From Gordonia sp. X0973 (lineage in GTDB: Bacteria > Actinomycetota > Actinomycetes > Mycobacteriales > Mycobacteriaceae): a stretch of 64,000 bases of DNA. Position numbers and translations under genes: made by a program. Positions 20,525-25,814 of this stretch are shown in pieces. Every line of letters starts with the position of its first letter. Position 1 is the first letter of the stretch. The notes under the pieces were generated by a model. The model worked only from the letters and a program-made list of their open reading frames with translations. It did not search any database and was not told the DNA's origin. The DNA is taken from the NCBI RefSeq assembly GCF_013348785.1, contig NZ_CP054691.1, positions 992,001 through 1,056,000 of the forward strand, written 5' to 3'.

Positions 20525-22504
20525 TTGGCCAACCGTCTCGCGGCCGCGACCAGTCCGTATCTGCGTCAACATGCCGATAATCCGGTCCACTGGTGGGAGT
20601 GGTGCGACGAGGCGTTCGCCGAGGCCGCCCGTCGGGACGTCCCGGTTCTGCTGAGCGTCGGATACGCCGCCTGCCACTGGTGTCACGTGATGGCGCACGA
20701 GACCTTCGACGACCCGGCTCTCGCGCAGCAGATGAACGACGGATTCGTCTGCATCAAGGTCGATCGCGAGGAGCGCCCCGACATCGACGCGGTCTACATG
20801 AACGCGACGACGGCGATGACCGGTCAGGGCGGTTGGCCGATGACCTGCTTCCTGACCGCGACCGGTGAACCCTTCTTCTGCGGTACCTACTACCCGCCCG
20901 TGGCACGCAACGGCCAACCGGGATTCGGGGAGGTCCTCGCCGCGGTGACACAGACCTGGCAGGGCAATCGCGGTGAGATCAACCGGGTCTCGGCGCAGGT
21001 GCGCGAACACTTGGCGAGGTCGGCGTCGGGATTGCCCGGCGGGGACGGCAGCGTCGACGACGAGTTGGCCCGGGCGGCGGTGGCGGCCCTCATCATCGAC
21101 GAGGACCCGGTCTACGGCGGATTCGGCACGGCACCGAAGTTCCCGCCGTCGTCGTTCATGTTGGCGCTGATCCGCCACGACGAGCGGGTGGGCTCCCCCG
21201 AGGCCTTCGACGTCGCGGTGCGCGCCGCGGTGGGTATGGCGGGTGGCGGCATCCGTGACCAGCTCGGTGGCGGGTTCGCGCGCTATGCGGTCGACCAGGC
21301 ATGGATCGTCCCGCACTTCGAGAAGATGCTCTACGACAATGCGCTGCTGTTGCGGGCGTACGCACAGTTGGCCCGCCGCGATAGTCCCATCCGTGAGATG
21401 TCGCAGCGCATCTGCGAGGAGACCGTGGCGTTCCTCGACGACACGCTGGGTACGTCGAGTGGATACGCCTCGTCACTCGACGCCGATACCGATGGCGTGG
21501 AGGGGGCGACCTACGTCTGGACACCCGAACAACTCTCCGACGTCCTCGGTCCCGACGACGGTGCCTGGGCGGCAAGGGTTTTCGGTGTCACGAGCGCCGG
21601 GACGTTCGAAGAGGGCACCTCCACGCTGCGATTCGCCGAACCACCCGATGACATCGACCGGCTCGGGCGGATCGTCGAGAAGCTGCGCGCGGCCCGCTCG
21701 GGTCGCCCCCAGCCCGCGCGCGATGACAAGGTCGTGACGGTGTGGAACGCGCTGGCCATCACTGCGCTCGTCGAGGCCGGACTGGGGATGTCCCGGCCGG
21801 AGTGGGTTGACCGGGCCGCATGGTGCGCCGAGGAAATCCTGAGCCGCCACCTGGTCGACGGCGAGCTGCGCCGGGCATCGCTACACGGCGAGGTCGGGGC
21901 GCCCCGCGCGATGCTCGACGACCATGCGGCGCTCGTCGTCGCCCTGCTCTCGCTGTTCGGTGCCACCGGCGAACAGCGGTGGCGCACCGCGGCGATCGAT
22001 CTGCTCGATACCGCGGTGGATACCTTCGCGGACCCCGACGCGGCCGGCTCCTGGTACGACGCGCCGGCTGACGGCGGGCTCATCGTGCGCCCGCGCGACC
22101 CGGCCGACGGTGCCACCCCGTCCGGCTCGTCGCTGATGGCTGAGGCCCTGTTGACGGCGTCGATGCTCGCCGAGCCCGAAGCGGCGGGTCGATACGCGGA
22201 ATTGGCCGAGCAGACCCTGTCCCGTGCCGCGGTTCTCTTGGCGCGTGTCCCGCGCGGGGCGGGTCACTGGTTGGCGGTTGCCGAGGCGCGGTTGGGCGGT
22301 CCGCTGCACGTCACGGCATCGTCGCCGGAGAAGCTCGCCCTCGCGCGCGAGCTGGCTCCCGGCTTCGCAATCGTTACCGCGGCTGGCGATTCCGGCTTCT
22401 CCGCCGACCAACCCGCGAACACGGTGCTCGTGTGCCGGGGAAGTACCTGCTCGCTCCCGCTGTCGGACGCCGACGAGATCGCTTCCCAACTCCGTCCGGT
22501 TTGA
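20525..22504 (+). CDS. Thioredoxin-domain protein (DUF255/YyaL family)
   Basis: Protein of 659 aa. The N-terminal thioredoxin-like domain (about residues 1-170) contains the CHWCH redox-like motif in [16 protein letters not shown] and the family opening [15 protein letters not shown]. The remaining 450 residues form an (alpha/alpha)6-barrel-like region as in N-acylglucosamine epimerase-type enzymes. The TTG start directly abuts the previous stop and begins at the conserved family N-terminus. It corresponds to Rv1084 and to animal SPATA20. No biochemical role is established for bacterial members to my knowledge. Confidence 0.9.
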
Positions 22505-22522
22505 GGGCGGTGGCACTACGGA

Positions 22523-22921
22523 TCAGAGTGAATCCGTGATGACGCCGGGAAGATCGCCGAAGCGGGCAGACGAGTCCCGAGTCAGCAGGATTCGGCCCGT
22601 TTCTGCCGCGTGAGCCGCGATGACGAGGTCGTGGGCGCCGCGCGGACGCCCGACCTTTCGCACGTGGGCGATCAACCGCGCGTGGTGGGCGGCCGTCGCC
22701 TCGGTGTAGTCGAGGACGTCGACCGCGCCGGTGATCGCCGCCAGCGCCTGCGCGCGTGCTGCGGCTTGATCAGCGTTCGCCGCCAATTCGATCCCGGTGC
22801 GGTACTCGGCGACGGTGATCGCCGCGATGGCCACATCGTCGTCGTCCAGGGCCGATCGGTCGATCGCATTCCGCTCGTAGGCGATGAGGAGATTCGTGTC
22901 GAGGACTACTCGTCGGCCCAT
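22523..22921 (-). CDS. vapC: PIN-domain toxin (VapC type)
   Basis: Ribonuclease toxin of the PIN fold, 132 aa. The metal-binding acids are all present: Asp in VVLDTNLLI, Glu in TVAEYRTG, Asp in GAHDLVIAAHA and Asp in LLTRDSSAR. It overlaps the antitoxin gene by 16 bases and is cotranscribed with it. VapC proteins cleave tRNA or rRNA; the target here is unknown. The pair is an insertion relative to the M. tuberculosis order between Rv1084 and Rv1085c. Confidence 0.9.
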   Translation of the reverse strand: MGRRVVLDTNLLIAYERNAIDRSALDDDDVAIAAITVAEYRTGIELAANADQAAARAQALAAITGAVDVLDYTEATAAHHARLIAHVRKVGRPRGAHDLVIAAHAAETGRILLTRDSSARFGDLPGVITDSL

Positions 22922-23163
22922 GGGTCCGTTTGGTCGGCGACCAACAGGTCGACAGCGGCAGAGATGTCGGCGGTGAAGGAATCGTCTGGTGGGGTGGTGT
23001 CGGCGAGGGCGCGGGCCAGGTCGCGTCCGGTCCGTCGGCGCACCGGGCGGATCTCGGCGATCGGGCGGTTGCCGCGCGTGACCACGACCGTGTCGCCCGC
23101 CTCGATGGAATCGAGGAGGTCGGAGAAGCCGCGGGAGGCCTCGGTGGCGCTGATCTTTCGCAC
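22906..23163 (-). CDS. vapB: Phd/YefM-type antitoxin
   Basis: Antitoxin of 85 aa with an N-terminal Phd/YefM DNA-binding fold (SATEASRGFSDLLDSI, then GDTVVVTRGNRPIAEIRP) and an acidic C-terminal tail that would wrap the PIN toxin. GTG 23163 is chosen because TATGAT lies 6 bases upstream; GTG 23169 is an alternative. The palindrome ATCTGAT-A-ATCAGAT stands over the -10 region and would be its operator. Confidence 0.87.
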   Translation of the reverse strand: MRKISATEASRGFSDLLDSIEAGDTVVVTRGNRPIAEIRPVRRRTGRDLARALADTTPPDDSFTADISAAVDLLVADQTDPWADE

Positions 23164-23174
23164 GATCACATCAT

Positions 23175-23189
23175 ATCTGATAATCAGAT
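23175..23189. promoter_or_regulatory. Operator of the toxin-antitoxin pair
   Basis: Perfect 7-1-7 inverted repeat (ATCTGAT, A, ATCAGAT) touching the predicted leftward -10 TATGAT (23170-23175). The position fits autorepression by the antitoxin, as known for Phd-type systems. Confidence 0.65.
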
Positions 23190-23192
23190 TTC

Positions 23193-23220
23193 TTGCCGGT
23201 GGACGACCGGGTGCTACTGT
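23193..23220 (+). promoter_or_regulatory. Promoter of the DAHP synthase leader
   Basis: TTGCCG (23193-23198), a 16-base spacer and TACTGT (23215-23220). The -10 ends 7 bases before GTG 23228, so the transcript should begin at the leader-peptide start codon. Confidence 0.6.
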
Positions 23221-23227
23221 GGGCGAC

Positions 23228-23296
23228 GTGAACATCTCCGTGCGCGCCTATTGGCGCTTTACCGAGGCTCCGGGTGGGCCTGCGGTGAAGCGGTAG
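23228..23296 (+). CDS. Aromatic leader peptide of DAHP synthase
   Basis: A 22-codon open frame starting with GTG. Its residues 8-11 read Tyr-Trp-Arg-Phe, using TAT, TGG, CGC and TTT. All three aromatic amino acids made by the pathway thus appear within four codons, and TAT and TTT are rare in this GC-rich DNA. A terminator hairpin with a T-rich tail follows 30 bases after the stop, ahead of the DAHP synthase gene. This is the layout of ribosome-mediated attenuation, known for example at the C. glutamicum aromatic and trp leaders. The peptide itself probably has no function beyond being translated. Confidence 0.75.
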   Translation: MNISVRAYWRFTEAPGGPAVKR

Positions 23297-23318
23297 TTTC
23301 GCGCGCACATTCCACATC

Positions 23319-23373
23319 CGGAGCCCGAGCAGTGACCATCACGGTCGCTGCTCTTTCCTTTTCCAGGGCTCCG
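23319..23373 (+). terminator. Attenuator hairpin before DAHP synthase
   Basis: Core stem GAGCAGTGACC (23327-23337) with GGTCGCTGCTC (23343-23353), one G-U pair, 5-base loop, followed by TTTCCTTTTCC. An outer stem CGGAGCCC (23319-23326) with GGGCTCCG (23366-23373) can enclose it. GGCTCCGG inside the leader-peptide gene (23266-23273) can instead pair with CCGGAGCC (23318-23325), an alternative fold that would disrupt the outer stem. Confidence 0.7.
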
Positions 23374-23412
23374 ACCGCGGGGCCCGGCGGACCAACGCGA
23401 GAGGCCAACACC

Positions 23413-24465
23413 GTGACCACCACCCCCGACCTGAATGCGCAGACCACCTCCGACCGGCGCATCCGGGCCTTCCGTCCGATCCCGACGCCGGATGCGCTGC
23501 GCAGCGAGCTGCCGCTGACCGCGCGCCGCGCCGTGGCCGTCGCCCGCGACCGCGAGGAGATCGCCGCCATCCTCGCCGGGCGCGACGACCGCCTACTCGT
23601 CGTCGTCGGTCCGTGCTCCATCCACGACACCGTCGCGGCGCTCGACTACGCGCGTCGCCTCGCGCCGCTGGCCGTCGAATACGCCGACCGCCTCAAGATC
23701 GTCATGCGCGTCTACTTCGAGAAGCCGCGGACCACCGTCGGGTGGAAGGGCCTCATCAACGACCCGGGCATGGACGGCAGCTTCGACGTGGAGCGCGGCC
23801 TGCGGACCGCCCGCGCGCTGCTGCTGGACATCATCGACCTCGGGCTGCCGGTGGGCTGCGAGTTCCTCGAGCCGAACAGCCCGCAGTACATCGCCGACGC
23901 GGTGGCCTGGGGAGCCATCGGGGCCCGCACCACGGAATCGCAGGTCCACCGGCAACTCGCCTCCGGCCTCTCCATGCCGGTCGGATTCAAGAACGGCACC
24001 GACGGGAACGTGCAGGTCGCCGTCGACGGGGTGCAGGCCGCGGCCGCACAGCACGTCTTCTTCGGACTCGACGACTTCGGCAACGGCGTCGTGGTGGAGA
24101 CGGCGGGCAACGAGGACTGCCACATCATCCTGCGCGGCGGGACCAGCGGGCCCAACTACGACGCGGAGTCGGTCGCGTCGGCGGCCGGCGTGCTCGCGAA
24201 GGCCGGACTGCCCGCGCGGGTGATGATCGATGCCTCCCACGCGAACTCTGGCAAGGATCACGAGCGCCAGGCCGTCGTCGCCGCCGAGATCGGCGACCTC
24301 GTCGCGCGGGGTGTGCCGATCAGCGGTGTGATGCTGGAGAGCTTCCTCGTTCCCGGCGCCCAATCGCCCGACGGCGCCGACCTCGTCTACGGCCAGTCGG
24401 TCACCGACAAGTGCATGGGCTGGGAAGCCACCGAGGCGGTGCTCCGCACGCTGGCCCGGGGCTAA
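23413..24465 (+). CDS. aroG: 3-deoxy-7-phosphoheptulonate synthase (class I)
   Basis: First enzyme of the shikimate pathway, condensing phosphoenolpyruvate and erythrose 4-phosphate; 350 aa, the usual length of the E. coli AroF/G/H type. Signature stretches are VVGPCSIHD, MRVYFEKPRTTVGWKG, GFKNGTDGN and MIDASHANSGKDH, holding the metal and substrate residues. GAGAGG lies 8 bases before the GTG start. Upstream sit a leader peptide and attenuator, so expression should respond to charged Tyr, Trp or Phe tRNA. Its end overlaps the convergent PepSY gene by four bases. Which aromatic amino acid inhibits the enzyme cannot be told. Confidence 0.95.
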   Translation: MTTTPDLNAQTTSDRRIRAFRPIPTPDALRSELPLTARRAVAVARDREEIAAILAGRDDRLLVVVGPCSIHDTVAALDYARRLAPLAVEYADRLKIVMRVYFEKPRTTVGWKGLINDPGMDGSFDVERGLRTARALLLDIIDLGLPVGCEFLEPNSPQYIADAVAWGAIGARTTESQVHRQLASGLSMPVGFKNGTDGNVQVAVDGVQAAAAQHVFFGLDDFGNGVVVETAGNEDCHIILRGGTSGPNYDAESVASAAGVLAKAGLPARVMIDASHANSGKDHERQAVVAAEIGDLVARGVPISGVMLESFLVPGAQSPDGADLVYGQSVTDKCMGWEATEAVLRTLARG

Positions 24466-25814
24466 CCGGCCCGGCAGTAGCCGACGAGAGCGTCGACGAC
24501 GACGAAGGCGAGCAGCGGAATCCCCAACAGCGGCACGAACCATCCGACGACGAGGATCGCGACGAACAGCAGGGCGAACACGGAGCGGGTGCGCATATCG
24601 GCGGCGGCGAATGCACTCCGCATGGTTCCACCCTGCGGGGGACGCCCGGCGCGGAGTCCCGGACCGCGGCGCCACCACAGGAGGTAGCCGCGGACGATGA
24701 CGGTCGTCAGCGCGATCATCAGCAGGAGCAGGGCCACCGCGCTGACCCAGCCGAACAGGATGCCCATGTGCAGCTGGATGCCCCACTCGGCCAGCTTCGC
24801 CGGCAGCGACCAGGTGGAGAACGGGACGTCGGCGGTCACGCCCATCGTCGTCGGGTCGACGGCGATGGCGTCGACCGAGTAACGCCACGGCAGTCGGGTC
24901 TGCGTGATGGTGACGGCGTCCCGAGGTCCGGTCGGCAGATCGATCTCGACCCGCCCGGACAGGCCGTGTGCGCGGGCGACGGCGAGTAGGGCGTCGAAGG
25001 AGGCGCTCGGCTGCTCGTGCGCGACGGTCGGCCCGGGGGCCGCGCCGTGGTGGTGGGCGGCCGGCACCGCCGTCGGCAACGGTGGGCGATCCCAATTCAG
25101 GTGGTGCCGCAGGTCGGCGATGTTCTGCCCCGCGTGCTTCGACCACGTCAACCCGGTCGCGGAGAGGAAGACGAGTCCGACGACGAGCCACACGCCGACG
25201 GCGCCATGCCAGTTCAGGGTGCGGTTGCGCCTGGTGCCCGTGCGCTCGACCGAGGCGATCCGCCACCACGAACGACCGGTGTTTCGGCGTCGGATGCGAA
25301 ACCGGTTGACCCACAACGCGAGTCCGCCGAGCGCCACGACCCACAGCCACGACGCGGCGAGTTCGCTGTATGTCCGGCCGGGCTCGCCCAGATGCAGATT
25401 CCGGTGCAACCCGTCGAGCCACGACCGCAGCGGCAGGGCGCCGTTGCTCCCGAAGGTCACCGATTGCCCCAGGACCCGGCTGGTCGTCGGGTCGACGAAG
25501 ACGGTGCGGCGTTCCGACTCGCCCAGGGAGTTGTCGGCGAAGTAGACGCGCGTCGTCTCATGTGGCGCGGCGGCCGCGTCGACCGCGGTGACGACCCCGA
25601 GTCGCGACTCCCGAGCAGCGGCGACCTGCTCGTCGATGCTGTGCGGCGGGCCGTCGGAGTCGACGTGGAGCAGGTGTCGGTAGGTCACGGACTCGACTTG
25701 TGGTGCGAGGGCGTACAGGCCGCCGCTGATCGTCGCGACGAGTAGGAACGGTGCGACGAGGATGCCGGCGTAGAAGTGCAGGCGACGGATGAGGGGCAGG
25801 AGGGGACGGAACAC
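24462..25814 (-). CDS. PepSY-domain membrane protein
   Basis: Membrane protein of 450 aa of the PepSY-associated TM family, sometimes called iron-regulated membrane protein. An N-terminal RRLHFYAGILVAPFLLVA helix is followed by an extracytoplasmic PepSY-like region, TM segments near residues 160, 215 and 365, and a second PepSY-like region (about 270-340). A C-terminal pair of TM helices ends the protein. A His-rich patch (AAHHHGAAP, about residue 257) could bind metal. The next gene upstream on the same strand is a small membrane protein, a pairing often seen for this family. Role in metal or reductase function is a family-based guess. Confidence 0.85.
   Translation of the reverse strand: MFRPLLPLIRRLHFYAGILVAPFLLVATISGGLYALAPQVESVTYRHLLHVDSDGPPHSIDEQVAAARESRLGVVTAVDAAAAPHETTRVYFADNSLGESERRTVFVDPTTSRVLGQSVTFGSNGALPLRSWLDGLHRNLHLGEPGRTYSELAASWLWVVALGGLALWVNRFRIRRRNTGRSWWRIASVERTGTRRNRTLNWHGAVGVWLVVGLVFLSATGLTWSKHAGQNIADLRHHLNWDRPPLPTAVPAAHHHGAAPGPTVAHEQPSASFDALLAVARAHGLSGRVEIDLPTGPRDAVTITQTRLPWRYSVDAIAVDPTTMGVTADVPFSTWSLPAKLAEWGIQLHMGILFGWVSAVALLLLMIALTTVIVRGYLLWWRRGPGLRAGRPPQGGTMRSAFAAADMRTRSVFALLFVAILVVGWFVPLLGIPLLAFVVVDALVGYCRAG

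Follow-up and report, generated by a model that had tools for sequence, protein, structure and literature searches.

We find that aroF, the gene for a type I DAHP synthase in the window (the whole 64,000-nucleotide stretch of Gordonia DNA analysed here), is preceded by a short leader reading frame with Tyr, Trp and Phe codons, by two competing RNA pairings and by a hairpin with a T-rich tail, and that this arrangement of leader and putative attenuator is real, its codons, predicted pairings, terminator and the abutment of one pairing against the terminator being conserved far beyond the genus. Judging from sequence and folding, it is very likely a ribosome-mediated transcription attenuator that would make DAHP synthase follow the state of charging of tRNA-Tyr and tRNA-Trp and, less strongly, of tRNA-Phe. 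Because DAHP synthase stands at the pathway entry and commits carbon to all aromatic products, a leader that hears all three of these amino acids would act as a general switch governed by the end products.

Leader, promoter and terminator upstream of aroF

A sequence-only reading of this region had proposed a 22-codon frame with its own promoter, Tyr, Trp and Phe codons within four positions, and a terminator hairpin with a T-rich tail ahead of the DAHP synthase gene, all of which are borne out (Table 1). The U-ending sensor codons are rare, as it had claimed, with TAT accounting for 2/38 Tyr codons and TTT for 1/56 Phe codons counted over four window genes; by eye, TAT and TTT sensor codons are also seen in most Corynebacterium and distant loci. 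The region thus holds what an attenuator would have, a short frame conserved together with its codons for products of the pathway and, between leader and gene, a putative intrinsic terminator recognised by its sequence pattern and by covariation. The interval 22800-23800 contains one terminator-like site, against a shuffle mean of 0.3, and a search of the window's genome with the aroF protein gives no further match. Upstream, the minus strand carries two genes oriented away from the leader, one VapC-like (22523-22921), though under the curated cut-offs, the other for a Phd-family antitoxin (22906-23166).

Table 1. Features of the leader region and aroF in the window (+ denotes the forward strand)
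Feature	Position	Strand	Details and basis
-10 box TACTGT, with TG at 23212-23213	23215-23220	+	Sequence; 7 nt upstream of the leader GTG
Leader ORF, 22 codons, leaderless reading	23228-23296	+	GTG start 23228-23230; product MNISVRAYWRFTEAPGGPAVKR; stop TAG 23294-23296
Sensor codons TAT TGG CGC TTT (Tyr Trp Arg Phe)	23249-23260	+	TAT 23249-23251, TGG 23252-23254, CGC 23255-23257, TTT 23258-23260; conserved in Gordonia and the family
A:B leader hairpin, proposed anti-antiterminator	23258-23289	+	23258-23270 with 23276-23289, G23282 bulged; fold of 23229-23300
Segment A, 5' arm of proposed antiterminator	23266-23276	+	GGCTCCGGGTG; folding, stem scan
Segment C, 3' arm of proposed antiterminator	23315-23325	+	CATCCGGAGCC; folding, stem scan, covariation set
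Terminator hairpin D:D'	23327-23353	+	11-bp stem, 23327-23337 with 23343-23353, loop ATCAC; terminator scan, covariation among 50 chosen relatives
T-rich tail	23354-23363	+	TTTCCTTTTC; sequence, terminator scan
Segment E	23366-23373	+	GGGCTCCG, complementary to 23319-23326; C:E pairing scan with shuffles
Shine-Dalgarno-like GAGAGG of aroF	23399-23404	+	Sequence
aroF, type I (AroFGH) DAHP synthase	23413-24462	+	TIGR00034, 496.8 bits, cut-off 173.2

The leader is probably leaderless because its start lies only 7 nt past a TANNNT box, and its transcript probably begins at or next to GTG 23228. A TANNNT box stands 6-8 nt ahead of the leader start in 185/185 rows (4 duplicates included), and at 7 nt in 162 of these, which fits a leaderless transcript; for this count the start was chosen by script as the nearest in-frame start with TANNNT at 3-8 nt. 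A sigma-70 consensus scan lists another site, 23157-23184, and does not list the TACTGT promoter.

Segment A (GGCTCCGGG) could pair either with B, within the leader, or with C, beyond the stop codon. The alternative pairing in the sequence-only reading, 23266-23273 with 23318-23325, exists and is longer than claimed, extending over the whole of segments A and C to 11 bp with one G-T pair, and a single nucleotide separates the A:C helix from the terminator. A further candidate helix, between GTGCGCGC inside the leader and GCGCGCAC past the stop, is good in the window but by eye inconsistent in the genus alignment, and was rejected.

Conservation in Gordonia and its family

All 59 Gordonia genomes searched have aroF, and 58 upstream regions were available, the contig of the remaining genome (G040) ending before the upstream DNA. 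The TATTGGCGNTTY leader is present in 58/58, as are TAT, TGG and, for the last Phe codon, TTT; in segment A the codons are GCT in 58/58, CCG in 57/58 and GGT in 50/58. The near-fixation of TAT, TTT, GCT, CCG and GGT points to constraint on the RNA. This bears on the view that the leader acts through its peptide product, whether by nascent-chain arrest or as a functional small protein, which we regard as highly improbable: its C-terminal half (e.g., IEAPGEPAMKR) looks conserved in Gordonia, but the conserved letters, wobble positions among them, fall on the pairing arms of A:B and A:C, and the Gordonia TTT pairs in A:B with GAA of the leader's end, which explains the conserved-looking peptide end. 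Outside the genus the C-terminal part is different and the order of the aromatic residues is shuffled. A small-molecule riboswitch or T-box with an incidental reading frame, as the strong RNA structure might be taken to indicate, is hardly credible given that little in the region is as constant as the sensor codons and that, with matches admitted up to E=1, Rfam gives for 22000-25000 only a microRNA model below its threshold; no Rfam leader family has a gathering-score match in that interval of the window or in seven relatives.

The family sample comprised 301 genomes, 249 with an aroF match, from which 67 non-Gordonia upstream regions were taken. To these were added loci from 30 of the 89 matching genomes of genus g29 (248 searched), which we tentatively take to be Mycobacterium, one further g18 locus, and loci from 30 of the 40 matching Corynebacterium genomes (151 searched); L119, from which no leader was obtained, is excluded from the family counts. 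The comparison of leader codons and hairpin among relatives that the sequence-only reading had put forward as its check comes out in its favour, with the leader in every Gordonia region and with Tyr, Trp and Phe, anywhere in the leader, in 161/181 family loci (Gordonia included; duplicates L178, L200, L147 and L156 removed). Nineteen of the 20 exceptions are Corynebacterium and one is g18, and excluding Corynebacterium the count is 148/149. The aromatic order varies within the family (YWRF, YWRFF, YFWF, YYWF, YRWRF, WRFYF) while the amino acids are kept.

Loci L116-L118 and L120-L126, from genera g6, g15, g21, g22 and g26, have leaders of AYFWF, VYFWF or AYYWF type for which the stem scan called no T-tract terminator, and in most of them a leader segment is complementary to the stretch just before the Shine-Dalgarno site. 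They may represent the switch in a form that acts on translation.

Covariation and the abutment of A:C with the terminator

Among 50 chosen sequences of relatives, 9 of the 11 D:D' pairs show double-sided change; for A:C this holds for 2/10 pairs, and 6 never vary. Taken jointly, A:C and D:D' show standard pairing in 96.5% of cells versus 89.9% in shuffles, and their covariation score is matched by 0/500 shuffles. A:B is outside the reach of this set because its register shifts between genera, and A:B-like hairpins of differing sequence are seen by eye in folds from other genera. A:C is found with other letters in Corynebacterium (AGGTTCCGGG with CCCGGAACCT, AAGGCTTGCGG with CCGCAAGCCTT, GGCTTCGGC with GCCGAAGCC) and is rebuilt with yet others in family f4 (TGGCTCTGGAG with CTCCAGAGCCA). 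In most genera of the family a T-tract terminator is present.

That the alternative pairing abuts the core stem rather than overlapping it, as the sequence-only reading remarked, turns out to be a conserved property. Of 124 loci scanned, 111 have a called stem and 13 do not; for 104 of the former the gap between A:C and the terminator measures -1 to 2 nt, and in the other seven (L101, L102, L109, L110, L114, L115 and L134) the scan caught only an inner helix. A scan with an open window of -3 to +30 nt, distant families included and L263, five genera without a terminator and four duplicates omitted, gives a gap of -1 to 4 nt in 184/210 loci and chooses a helix further off in 26; the gap is mostly 2-4 nt in families f15 and f34, and -1 to 2 nt in 30/32 Corynebacterium loci, including L198. 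Another scan placed 175/175 loci at -2 to 2 nt, a figure biased because its window hardly allowed larger gaps.

Overlap of the antiterminator with the 5' arm of the terminator is typical of attenuators, though not strictly defining; here the two helices abut. As this abutment is conserved, we infer that A:C is probably the antiterminator nonetheless. With an overlap of nil or one base, exclusion would be steric or would operate through competition for the lowest pairs, and for an antiterminator that does not overlap the terminator mutual exclusion is assumed. The adjacency of A:C and D:D' also makes stacking feasible, and A:C could in principle stabilise the terminator in this way, so that stalling would increase termination. 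We consider this very unlikely, as it predicts less DAHP synthase in starvation, and the accessible text of PMC11802643 reports the opposite for the C. glutamicum relative.

Proposed switch and folding tests

In the attenuator we favour, a ribosome would start on the leaderless transcript at its 5' end and, where charged tRNA is scarce, would presumably stall at TAT, TGG or TTT, blocking A:B and leaving A free for C. The A:C helix, ending 1 nt before the terminator, would then keep the terminator open and polymerase would enter aroF. With the tRNAs charged, the ribosome would reach the stop codon, where its bulk between A and C would presumably prevent A:C; C would stay unpaired, the terminator would close, and transcription would end ahead of aroF. 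If there were no translation, A:B and A:C would compete.

Folding was computed with all RNA up to the leading edge of the ribosome made unavailable, for 133 rows (duplicates L147 and L156 included). Without a ribosome, A:C is above 0.5 in 57/133 rows and A:B in 63; a ribosome at Tyr or Trp shifts the fold between these two pairings, which share segment A, such that A:C is above 0.5 in 129/133. A ribosome placed at Phe covers the start of A, so that A:C exceeds 0.5 in no more than 12/133 rows, which suggests, within this model, that a lone Phe codon senses less strongly than the Tyr and Trp codons; with Phe-Phe, present in 19/58 Gordonia leaders, one Phe codon lies further back. Like the Phe result, two others count against the model. 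The window RNA already prefers A:C without a ribosome (0.67 vs 0.16 for A:B), and with a ribosome masked at the stop codon A:C is still above 0.5 in 122/133 rows, so that the OFF state would require a ribosome too large to fit the A-to-C stretch, which measures 36-48 nt in 91/104 loci.

The leader could also, or mainly, control translation of aroF through the pairings C:E, E:F and F with the Shine-Dalgarno sequence, stalling sequestering C and thereby opening the binding site. The C:E pairing is indeed found close behind the T-tract, with a shuffle p≤0.05 in 51/103 loci (median 0.055; 0/200 shuffles in the window). By eye, segment F (GGTGCC or similar) in g29, g18, g10 and g12 could pair with GGCACC on the Shine-Dalgarno side, with compensatory flanks (GAGTGCC with GGCACTC, GTGTGCC with GGCACAC, CAGGTGCC with GGCACCTG), and C. 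glutamicum aroR is called a translational regulatory leader peptide in the available portion of PMC7356990, which counts against a transcription-only reading. Nevertheless, we judge translational control unlikely: blocking C gave no opening of the Shine-Dalgarno site, with changes of more than 0.05 upward in 30 rows and downward in 25, and no change in 76, of 131; by eye no E is seen in Corynebacterium loci L189, L193, L197 and L199-L201; and a T-tract terminator is present in most family genera. The full cascade C:E, E:F, F:G has attractive by-eye covariation that the equilibrium test did not support, and we retain it only as a rival to the attenuator.

Distribution beyond the family

In the window's genome a covariance model detects a single copy; it has matches in 33/298 genomes of the order at E≤0.001 (family members included) and in 52/345 genomes of the class at E≤0.01 (family members and weak hits included). 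Type I DAHP synthase is downstream in 8/8 order-level loci, and of 32 class-level loci 20 precede a type I DAHP synthase, 11 a gene of the type found at L250, and one (L263) neither; lacking a persuasive leader and gene alike, L263 was treated as a false hit. The L250-type product, a divergent one, scores as DAHP synthase plus chorismate mutase, with 5/5 proteins matching both NCBIfam kinds, below curated cut-offs, and 3/3 tested passing the Pfam cut-offs for both domains; L255 was assigned to this type on a match to the chorismate mutase part only.

Leaders at type I loci outside the family carry Tyr and Phe in 28/28 cases and Trp in 11, in motifs such as RWYQRF, RWFTYF and RWYWRF; in the other 17 (RRYRYF, RRYPYF, RSYQRF and others) Trp is missing, so that three-way sensing would be mainly a family trait. 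The suggestion of the sequence-only reading that one leader senses all three aromatics stands for the codons of most family loci, but is qualified by the weaker response to Phe in folding and by these Trp-free leaders outside the family. Leaders before the fused gene (L250, L251, L253-L255 and L257-L262) have Phe in 11/11, Tyr in 6/11 and Trp in 0/11. A rule by which the codon set follows the enzyme, with Trp only before plain DAHP synthase, was entertained and given up, because Trp is absent from the 17 type I leaders as well.

Among 80 named loci kept from the matches listed, the model hits 11, six leaders of the described type (one on a contig labelled Acidobacteriaceae) and five weak alphaproteobacterial ones. 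At eleven type I DAHP synthase loci of named actinobacteria (Nocardiopsis and kin) the covariance model finds nothing, a result that weighs against the attenuator reading. In alphaproteobacteria (Devosia, a Hyphomicrobiales genome, Bradyrhizobium and Rhizobium), an aromatic leader, e.g., MNLRATYFYWYFSNGSRWQPEGRV, precedes type I DAHP synthase and is followed by a hairpin and T-run, as matched by the model in L307, L342, L287, L284 and L319 and seen by eye in L293, L309 and L312; this looks like a separate attenuator, perhaps a convergent one. L268, on a contig labelled Acidobacteriaceae bacterium BOG_194, carries an aroF and a leader that closely resemble their counterparts at Tsukamurella locus L269, and the contig is probably mis-binned.

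We put forward tentatively, as a possibility that falls short of likely, that this is a class-wide attenuator family serving two kinds of DAHP synthase, in which the terminator would be switched off purely by an abutting antiterminator sharing none or one of its bases, and of which the branch in the window's family would hear three aromatics. This caution attaches to the abutment reading alone, with the codon-set-follows-enzyme rule excluded from it.

Comparison with known systems

The 2005 survey of Actinobacteria (PMC1262725), in the portion available, describes operons for Phe or Tyr as having no conserved structures ahead of them, and the present design occurs in many genera of that group; the attenuators and the LEU element described there resemble it in combining leader codons with competing RNA structures. 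Eight Streptomyces lividans leader peptides are listed in the accessible part of PMC8079986, and neither Phe nor Tyr is represented among them. The literature searched, in which subscription journals are thinly covered, gave no account of a leader combining Tyr, Trp and Phe ahead of DAHP synthase. The many-genus collection is well suited to testing multivalent attenuation, leaderless leader peptides and whether an abutting helix suffices to prevent termination, and the leader is a natural target in strains making aromatic amino acids.

The E. coli trpL and pheL leaders each respond to one amino acid, and have a ribosome-binding site and an antiterminator that overlaps the terminator. The Gordonia leader is like these systems, both named in the available text of PMC11802643, in that stalling at end-product codons would pick antiterminator or terminator, and differs from them in being probably leaderless, in carrying codons for three amino acids and in its abutting antiterminator. 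A further likeness is to the C. glutamicum ilvBNC attenuator, which, according to the accessible part of PMC11857589, has an anti-antiterminator, an antiterminator and a terminator and is decided by adjacent antiterminator and terminator bases competing for a shared GCC. In that account the ilvBNC hairpins overlap by these 3 nt and the leader has branched-chain codons, whereas the Gordonia type shares none or one nucleotide.

As in the C. glutamicum aroR-aroF attenuator, aromatic codons precede a type I DAHP synthase aroF in Gordonia; the primary paper on that attenuator is said to be Neshat et al. 2014. The sequence-only reading was right that attenuators of aromatic genes are known in C. glutamicum, aroR before aroF being the described relative (in the available portions of PMC11802643, PMC4046766 and PMC7356990). 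The first two of these give aroR as a Phe-Tyr-Phe leader, and the review PMC11802643, as far as its accessible text goes, states that aroF transcription is up under Phe limitation via stalling on aroR and that Tyr availability is without effect, the latter counting against Tyr sensing by analogy. By eye, the promoter of Corynebacterium locus L198 shares 23 nt with the aroR oligonucleotide printed in the available part of PMC7356990, and its product begins as the downstream oligonucleotide there encodes, making L198 a near relative of C. glutamicum, with strain identity not implied. Its A:C helix ends at the terminator, as in Gordonia. Set against the Phe-Tyr-Phe of the available aroR descriptions, Gordonia has Tyr-Trp-Arg-Phe(-Phe) with Trp invariant, and the leader in the window is, on this comparison, a relative of aroR extended to three amino acids by an added Trp, attenuator-like and widely conserved.
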